A stretch of 49,385 nt of DNA, taken from the NCBI RefSeq assembly GCF_000337595.1, contig NZ_AOIL01000069.1, forward strand, positions 72,083 through 121,467, in the 5' to 3' direction. The notes below the pieces were generated by a model that was given only the letters and a program-made list of their open reading frames with translations, was not told where the DNA came from and ran no database searches. Source of the DNA: Natrialba taiwanensis DSM 12281 (lineage in GTDB: Archaea; Halobacteriota; Halobacteria; Halobacteriales; Natrialbaceae). How positions within the stretch are numbered: position 1 is the stretch's first letter; every line of letters begins with the position of its first letter. Of the stretch, positions 41,088-46,334 are shown in pieces. The translations under genes were made by a program, and so were the position numbers.

Positions 41088-43581
<2,494 letters not shown>

Positions 43582-43724: not shown

Positions 43725-45449
43725 TCATTCGCTCCTGACGACCACCTCATCCTCTCTCACTGCCGTTATCTGTGCCGGCTCGACCGGATACTCGTCGTCG
43801 CTGTGACCGCCCCAGTCGAGTCGCGCCCGCAGCCGGTCCGTAAGCCCCGGCTTCGGATCGACGTACGCGGTCCCCTCCTCAACGGTCGAAATAATCCCGA
43901 TCTGATTCCCCGACTCGTCGACGACATTCTTTCCCTGATCCGAAGCCGAAATCGATGCCGTCGCATCCGGGTCTACGGCCGGGGTCTCCGACTCCGGCTC
44001 TCCCGGCTCTGACTCCGACTCCGCATCCATTTCGGGTTCTCCAGTTCCGTCTCGCGTTTCGTCCATCTCACCCGCACCCGTTTCCATCTCGCCACCGGCT
44101 GCCGACCCCGTTCCGGCCTCCGCCGAAGCCGATTCCGCACCGGCTCCACTCGGTTCAGCCATCTCCGCCCCTTCGCCGGCAGCAGTCTCCTCGTTACCGG
44201 CCGTTCCGGTCTCCAGCGCTTCCGTCTGATCGCTCCCGCCGGACTCCATCTCCGCCGTCTTCATCCCCCCGGGCTCTGCTTCTGCGCCCATTTCTCCTGT
44301 CGCACCCTCGCCTGACTCGGCACCTCCCGCCGCTCCGGCCGGCGAACGCATCTCTTCCGCCGACATCGTCTCGTACTCCTCGCTGTCGATGATCTCCCCC
44401 TCGAGAACCGTGCTGCTGACGAGTTCAGAATCGAGAATGTCGCTGTCCTCGAGCGCAAAGCGCATCACGAGCCGTTCGTCGATTTCGTCTTCGACGGTAC
44501 GACGTTCGATGAGGTCGCTCCGAACGGTATCGCCCTCGCCGCGCTTGCTCTCGATGACTTCCTGTTCGATGACTGCCTCGGGTTCGGCGTCCGTTCGGAC
44601 GATATCGCTCTCGAGAATCGATTCCTGGACGCGCTCGAAGGCATCGTCCATCTCGATCTCGTCTCGAGTGAGCGCGTCGTTGTGGTCGATATCGACGTTG
44701 ACGACGCGACTCTCGACCGTGTAGCGCTCGATCTCCTCGACCGTTTCGAGGCGGGCCTCGTCGGTCGTGACCTCGACGAGCGACTCGTCGATGAACTCGA
44801 TATCGATAGCCTCCCGATTGAGGAGTTCGGAGTCGACGATGCGGCGTTCGAGGAGTTCGGAGCCGATGACCTCGCTCTCGATAGTGTCGCGTTCGACGAT
44901 GTCGCGCTCGATTCGCTGCGTTTCGACGAGTTCAGTTGTGACGCGCTCGCCCTGTCGGAGTTGGTCCTCGAGTTCGCTCTCGCCGAGTTCGGCGCGATCG
45001 AAGGCCCGGGTTCGGTCGACGAGTTCGAAGGTGTCGAGTGAGAGATTGTCGGCGTCTGGTTGCGCATCGGCTTCGTCTTCGACGTCGGTTTCGGCCGTGT
45101 CCGTCGCGCCGTGGCCGCGGTCTTGCGCTGCGGGCCCTGTGGCCTCGTAGACGAACACCAGATCCTCGTTGCTGAACGTCTCGCTGAACTCGTCCCAGGA
45201 CTGCTCTTCGTGGTGGTCCTCGAGGTCGTCTCGACGGGCGAGCGTGTAGTCGTAACCGCCACCGCTGCCTTCGCCGCCGTACGTCGAGACGGGAACGGCG
45301 TCGCGGGACTCAGCCCACTCCCGGATTCGGTCGGGATCTGTAGTCAGTCTGCGGTGGGCGCGCCGTCGGTGGGTCCCCGAGTTCTCGGTCGGCCTCGCGC
45401 TCGCGCTCGCACTCGTGTTCGATGAACTGTCGGGTGGATCCTCGGACAT
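43725..45449 (-). CDS. Acidic period-5 repeat protein with C-terminal PRC-barrel
   Basis: A 574-residue protein starting MSEDPPDSSSNTS; the longer frame to 45686 is non-acidic and was rejected. Residues 38-103 form an unnamed domain (IREWAESRDAVPVSTYGG, SNEDLVFVYEAT). From about 174 to 359 hydrophobic pairs recur every five residues (ERDIV, ERDTI, ESEVI, GSELL, ERRIV, DSELL; later DSDIL, DSELV, SSTVL, EGEII), some 35 periods, suggesting a beta-solenoid. About 365-490 is Gly/Ala/Glu/Met low complexity. The last about 75 residues are a PRC-barrel (VVDESGNQIGIISTVEEGTAYV). Function is unknown; bacterial PRC-barrel/DUF2382 stress proteins are a loose parallel. Confidence 0.75.
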   Translation of the reverse strand: MSEDPPDSSSNTSASASARPTENSGTHRRRAHRRLTTDPDRIREWAESRDAVPVSTYGGEGSGGGYDYTLARRDDLEDHHEEQSWDEFSETFSNEDLVFVYEATGPAAQDRGHGATDTAETDVEDEADAQPDADNLSLDTFELVDRTRAFDRAELGESELEDQLRQGERVTTELVETQRIERDIVERDTIESEVIGSELLERRIVDSELLNREAIDIEFIDESLVEVTTDEARLETVEEIERYTVESRVVNVDIDHNDALTRDEIEMDDAFERVQESILESDIVRTDAEPEAVIEQEVIESKRGEGDTVRSDLIERRTVEDEIDERLVMRFALEDSDILDSELVSSTVLEGEIIDSEEYETMSAEEMRSPAGAAGGAESGEGATGEMGAEAEPGGMKTAEMESGGSDQTEALETGTAGNEETAAGEGAEMAEPSGAGAESASAEAGTGSAAGGEMETGAGEMDETRDGTGEPEMDAESESEPGEPESETPAVDPDATASISASDQGKNVVDESGNQIGIISTVEEGTAYVDPKPGLTDRLRARLDWGGHSDDEYPVEPAQITAVREDEVVVRSE

Positions 45450-45704: not shown

Positions 45705-46334
45705 TTAGCCGTCGGCGTTGACGAGGTCGGTAACGTCGATACTCGATTCCGCCTCGTACTCGGCCCAGATGTATCGCGTCGCCGCGCTCCGATAGGGCCG
45801 CCACGCCTCGGCGATCTCGCGCATTTCGGCCCGCGTCAACTCCGCGCCGTCGCCGTAGAGTTCGTCGATCCCGCGGCGCACGGCGAGGTCGCCGAGCGGC
45901 AGGATATCGGGTCGTTCCAGCACGAACAGGAGGTACATGCGGGCCGTCCACTCGCCGATGCCCTTGATCTCGGTGAGACGGCTGACGACGTCTTCGTTAC
46001 TGACGTCGGCCAGCCCGTCGCGGGTGTAATCGTCCTCCTGAAACGCCCGCGCCGCGTTTCGCACGTACTCGATCTTGCTGCGCGAGAGGCCGGCGTCCCG
46101 GAGCGCCCGATCCTCCGCCGTGAGGACGGTTTCGGGCGTGACTTCGTCCTCGAGCAGGTCGAACACACGCTCGCGAACGGCCGCCGCGCTCGCCGTCGAG
46201 AGTTGCTGGTTGATGATCGAGATACAGAGGCGCTCGTACTCGGTCTGGTTCGGTTTGACGTAGGGATCGTGCGTTTCGACCAGTCGGCTCATGACCGGGT
46301 CCTGGCGCAGCACGGGTTCGGCCTGGTCCATCAT
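45705..46334 (-). CDS. DNA-3-methyladenine glycosylase-like (AlkA/HhH-GPD)
   Basis: A 209-residue base-excision DNA glycosylase of the HhH-GPD superfamily. IINQQLSTASAAAVRERVF is the typical helical start. The helix-hairpin-helix is LTEIKGIGEWTARMYLLFVL (120-139), and the catalytic Asp is D149 in ILPLGDLAVRRGI. There is no C-terminal Cys cluster, which argues against the endonuclease III branch and for the AlkA-type alkyl-base branch. The C-terminus (WRPYRSAATRYIWAEYE) is also AlkA-like. The start could be either of two adjacent Met codons. Confidence 0.9.
   Translation of the reverse strand: MMDQAEPVLRQDPVMSRLVETHDPYVKPNQTEYERLCISIINQQLSTASAAAVRERVFDLLEDEVTPETVLTAEDRALRDAGLSRSKIEYVRNAARAFQEDDYTRDGLADVSNEDVVSRLTEIKGIGEWTARMYLLFVLERPDILPLGDLAVRRGIDELYGDGAELTRAEMREIAEAWRPYRSAATRYIWAEYEAESSIDVTDLVNADG

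Follow-up and report, generated by a model that had tools for sequence, protein, structure and literature searches.

A haloarchaeal protein domain with a strict five-residue hydrophobic period and predicted long beta-strands, located between a mobile N-terminal module and a PRC-barrel

The window, the 49,385-nucleotide stretch of Natrialba taiwanensis DSM 12281 analysed here, carries on its minus strand a gene for an acidic protein of 574 residues. Its ATG start is backed by ortholog alignment. Positions 44370-44930, which had drawn attention in an earlier note, correspond to residues 174-360. The gene and its parts, with structural elements taken from AlphaFold2 (AF2) models, are as follows.

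43725..45449, minus strand: whole gene, 574 aa, pI 4.05, 62 kDa
45141..45353, minus strand: N-terminal mobile domain, residues 33-103 (alignment, rhizobial stand-alone relatives, other fusions, AF2)
44364..45041, minus strand: period-5 domain, predicted beta, residues 137-362 (alignments, dN/dS, occurrence in Halobacteria)
44775..44954, minus strand: period-5 block 1, residues 166-225, with doublets where the residue number is 4 or 0 mod 5
44385..44627, minus strand: period-5 block 2, residues 275-355, with doublets where the residue number is 3 or 4 mod 5
44787..44906, minus strand: predicted beta-strand, residues 182-221 (40 aa; AF2, pLDDT ~90 or more from residue 190)
44691..44780, minus strand: predicted beta-strand, residues 224-253 (30 aa; AF2), putatively paired with 182-221
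44460..44528, minus strand: predicted beta-strand, residues 308-330 (AF2)
44388..44447, minus strand: predicted beta-strand, residues 335-354 (AF2), probable partner 308-330 (weak covariation at i+j ~667)
43953..44363, minus strand: linker of variable, low-complexity acidic/Gly-Ala-Ser sequence, residues 363-499, predicted to be disordered (AF2; poor alignment, fast evolution)
43728..43952, minus strand: C-terminal PRC-barrel domain, residues 500-574 (PF05239 in relatives, RimM fold match, strongest constraint)

The order N-terminal domain, period-5 domain, PRC-barrel holds in all period-5 loci checked domain by domain, except one (L131) whose open frame is short, truncated at the end, and lacks the PRC-barrel. 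In the window the gene lies between katG (catalase-peroxidase; 41398-43581) and an HhH-GPD DNA glycosylase gene (45705-46334). Most of the Natrialbaceae loci examined show the same arrangement, with the glycosylase upstream and katG convergent. In other haloarchaeal families the neighbors of the period-5 gene differ, and because they change outside Natrialbaceae no pathway was read from genome context.

The defining feature of the central domain is its periodicity. Each residue was scored as hydrophobic or not, and the power of each period was computed over residues 174-359. The top period is 4.97, with a power of 27.0. The power at exactly 5 was reached by none of 5000 shuffles, and the maximum over all periods by none of 500. 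Power at 3.6 residues is negligible, and a coiled coil or helix was rejected on this ground. Among 81 non-redundant relatives, 80 have a best period of 4.8-5.2, and the peak exceeds 40 shuffles in every one. In the family average, hydrophobic residues make up mostly 75-100% at the doublet positions and mostly 0-2% at the three positions between them, and the consensus unit is (E/D)-(T/S/R)-(E/D)-(V/I/L)-(V/I/L). The hydrophobic pairs that the earlier note saw at every fifth residue over about 174-359 are therefore real, as is the single phase shift it placed near residue 270: we find one shift, of one residue, between residues 250 and 278. The limits it gave need revision. Conserved positions begin at about residue 137, and a stretch of lower regularity lies between the clean periodic blocks, ~166-225 and ~275-355. 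Within that stretch (226-270), I240, V245 and V250 are still in phase, and residues 225-270 taken alone are not significantly periodic (p = 0.48).

Of 391 Halobacteria genomes, 109 have a relative of the period-5 protein; within the same family the figure is 77 of 125. When all GTDB species were scanned with short patterns, which work best at close relatives, the 43 loci recovered were all haloarchaeal. Over the period-5 domain, the nearest relatives are from N. asiatica (L061, 94% identity) and N. aegyptia (L062, 92%). The region is very acidic (D+E 32%) and has a low-complexity flavor. Within Natrialba, dN/dS is 0.19-0.25 in the period-5 domain, 0.42-0.90 in the linker and 0-0.15 in the PRC-barrel, which is the most constrained region of the protein. 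The period-5 domain is thus under purifying selection and evolves like a folded domain. R212, E231, G167, E176, E186 and E191 are invariant or nearly so across 81 sequences, and the alignment shows few indels in the domain within Natrialbaceae.

Searches of Pfam, NCBIfam, PHROGs and the PDB gave no family that covers the period-5 domain, and we found nothing in the literature on this protein family. Two known families invited comparison. Pentapeptide-repeat proteins (PF00805 and relatives) share with it a five-residue period and a beta prediction. DUF2382 (PF09557), the C-terminal domain of YsnF/AvaK, is often fused to PRC-barrels and resembles the period-5 domain as an acidic, beta-rich partner of that barrel. 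Neither the pentapeptide-repeat Pfam models nor DUF2382 matched 22 members at E<=10, and neither was among the first 25 of 31 families listed for 81 members at E<=1. Membership in DUF2382 is rejected on these profile searches. Ordinary pentapeptide-repeat membership is rejected too, since the consensus A-(D/N)-L-x-x, with a small residue at i-2 and L/F at i, is also not followed: the strict core occurs in only 14 of 810 units, and L/F occupies site i in 9-25% of units. The earlier note was right to set this repeat apart from the classic pentapeptide. The period-5 domain differs in its adjacent V/I/L doublets, in an i-2 site that is often charged, and in predicted long strands in place of coils. 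It is new to the family catalogs searched, yet it sits within a recognizable kind of protein.

At the other end of the protein, the C-terminal domain is a PRC-barrel superfamily member, as the earlier note had it. The window protein alone gives no Pfam match. PF05239 is matched by 18 of 81 members (best E 2.2e-5), with all individual matches examined against the cut-off falling below it. AF2 places the domain at pLDDT 76-95 in the element order bbb-a-bbb, and the RimM structure 2f1l is matched with probability 0.99, but with a weak E of 0.12. Compared by hhalign with two PRC proteins encoded in the same genome, the C-terminal domain scored 2% probability, from too few sequences. The same genome encodes several small relatives of the C-terminal domain. 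One small PRC-barrel-like protein there (L175:1480-2010) has an acidic tail with repeated DSGLMDDDD-like units.

The N-terminal domain, which the earlier note left unnamed, is indeed a real domain, and proves to be a mobile module with bacterial relatives in rhizobia. It carries the motif TTDPxxIRxWAExRDAxP...WDEFxExFxxxDLVFVY across residues 33-103, and its AF2 pLDDT is mostly 81-96. It is homologous to a hypothetical protein of ~88 aa found in rhizobia and haloarchaea (TTTDHxxIRKWAEERxGxPA...WDEFFxxFxxxxLAFLYQD...FxKFVERD), and this homology runs on to an FxLVERD motif at residues 141-147. In those small proteins, unlike the window protein, the domain makes up the entire chain. They are sometimes mislabeled '1,4-alpha-glucan branching enzyme'. 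In haloarchaea the domain also stands alone, directly precedes a PRC-barrel without any period-5 domain (L154, L155, L163 and L168), or precedes a lamin-tail domain (PF00932, E 9e-20; L156, L158 and L160). It is because of these three settings that we regard it as mobile. By sequence similarity, L157, L162, L166 and L167 likewise combine it with a lamin-tail, and in these lamin-tail proteins the N-terminal domain is sometimes in tandem. Two modules that can also be joined directly thus seem to have gained the period-5 domain between them. Resemblances of the N-terminal domain to Lsr2 DNA-binding and Prim-Pol domains were set aside, as the matches are mostly short or sub-threshold. In L158:428-1402 the second copy of the domain does match Prim-Pol PF09250 above the cut-off (28.5 versus 22.8 bits), and for two of the stand-alone rhizobial proteins the match lies below the cut-off; the PF09250 matches possibly reflect a remote relation or chance.

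We modeled the period-5 domain with AF2 twice, as the domain alone from 22 sequences and within the full-length protein from 81. The domain-alone model has a mean pLDDT of 59.7. The full-length model has 205 residues at pLDDT 90 or above and a pTM of 0.44; the period-5 domain lies mostly at 84-95, with ~90 or more over much of its length, and most of linker residues 373-491 lie below 50. The prediction for the domain is beta, not disorder or mainly helix. Strands run over ~170-180, 182-221, 224-253, 308-330 and 335-354, with helices near 267-280, 290-295 and 356-368, and the domain-alone run gives nearly the same elements. The strands continue for 20-40 residues with no break at each fifth residue. 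A 40-residue strand, a gap of two residues and a 30-residue strand read as a hairpin, and the predicted strands of 40+30 and 23+20 residues would most simply form two long antiparallel hairpins. The hydrophobic doublets of 308-330 fall opposite those of 335-354 at i+j 662 or 667.

Covariation was analyzed by mean-field DCA, mutual information and phylogenetic contrasts. In uncorrected mutual information on a reduced alphabet, the top-ranked sums were i+j = 445 and 667, which match the hairpin registers. After phylogenetic correction the signal at 445 was gone and that at ~666 was left, weakly. Because covariation did not establish the pairing, the preference for hairpins over a solenoid draws on the AF2 models and on residue make-up. 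Fold searches against the PDB and viral models returned nothing at E<=0.001.

The strongest rival is a genuine beta-solenoid, whether quadrilateral, pentapeptide-like or of a new tightly coiled type, in which each side would be one five-residue unit and the doublets would line the core. The strict period of five speaks for it, the T/S-E-V/L register has some resemblance to A-(D/N)-L with a small residue at i-2 in 63% of units, and a DSSP 'E' by itself is no proof of hairpins. Against this, i-2 is charged, mostly by Arg, in 32% of units in the best register and in 75% in the other, where a pentapeptide helix requires a small, buried residue; the fit to such a core is therefore poor, and the strict core is rare. 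The 81 members match no pentapeptide-repeat model among those listed, no pentapeptide-type solenoid appears among the fold matches listed, the predicted strands pass unbroken through fifth residues, and offsets of 15 or 20 do not stand out robustly in the covariation. We consider a solenoid unlikely, and the earlier proposal of a halophilic pentapeptide relative or new solenoid is not upheld.

An acidic halophilic filler that is flexible and lacks a defined fold, its period a side effect of repeat expansion, would account for the acidity and low complexity. It is less probable than the solenoid, given the near-invariant residues, a within-genus dN/dS of 0.19-0.25 against 0.4-0.9 in the true linker, few indels in Natrialbaceae and the high pLDDT. 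A lipid- or ligand-binding or pore-like sheet of long strands (TULIP/JHBP or MACPF style) is the least probable of the three: the best Foldseek matches (C9/MAC, CETP, juvenile-hormone-binding protein and gasdermin) all have long twisted strands, and short helices lie between the hairpins, but every E exceeds 0.001, TM-scores reach at most ~0.3 with rmsd mostly 10-35 Å, no transmembrane feature was seen, and the hydrophobic residues occupy both faces instead of one cavity-lining face.

We favor long straight ribbons. The repeated units would build two long ribbons, each of two antiparallel strands (~182-221 with 224-253, and 308-330 with 335-354), and short helices would connect the ribbons. 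Each doublet, in a strand that is extended, would place one aliphatic side chain on each face, and hence a hydrophobic band would recur on both faces at every fifth residue (~17 Å). The charged and hydroxyl triplets between bands would remain soluble in molar salt, and the ribbons probably stack on one another through these bands, either inside one protein or between copies. Such a domain would represent an uncatalogued class of beta domain, with 20-40-residue ribbons, a band per 17 Å, and use as a salt-stable, self-associating ruler from head to PRC-barrel. We put this forward tentatively, as somewhat less probable than its opposite.

For the protein as a whole we give roughly even odds to a cytoplasmic adaptor built of modules, with the period-5 domain serving as a rigid beta spacer or self-association element. 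The head domain (33-103) and the PRC-barrel (500-574) would be kept apart by the acidic beta domain (137-362) and the flexible acidic linker, and the stiff spacer or oligomerization element would display both to two partners. An adaptor head with an inserted period-5 spacer would fit the settings of the N-terminal domain: alone, before PRC-barrels lacking the spacer, and before lamin-tail domains. The PRC-barrel proteins CdpB1 and CdpB2 of Haloferax are found in complex with SepF in cell division (PMC12186497, PMC10936438), which shows, by analogy, that the PRC-barrel fold can serve as a protein-protein adaptor in haloarchaea. They belong to the same superfamily as the C-terminal domain of the window protein, whose barrel is tethered to two other domains; the parallel is an analogy, not evidence for a division role. 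For the RNA or membrane association suggested by the earlier note we found no evidence, and the 574-aa protein has no transmembrane stretch (maximum 19-residue hydropathy 0.61). The earlier note's underlying observation held, as did its reading of the region as beta and as no ordinary pentapeptide repeat and of the C-terminus as a PRC-barrel; the solenoid and the RNA or membrane role found no support.

The period-5 domain is thus present in more than a quarter of the sampled haloarchaeal genomes, under purifying selection and unmatched in the catalogs searched. Should the ribbon reading be correct, a strict period of five would specify long straight beta-strands and not a solenoid. Such a rule linking sequence to structure would be unusual and could help in understanding or designing beta fibers that are stable in salt. 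The mobile head domain, also present in bacteria and tied to both PRC-barrel and lamin-tail modules, offers a route toward partners.

In two genomes the period-5 protein is present twice, as diverged copies: at positions 777385 and 1185599 of G328:C1 in the first, and at 353623 and 3128712 of G395:C1 in the second.
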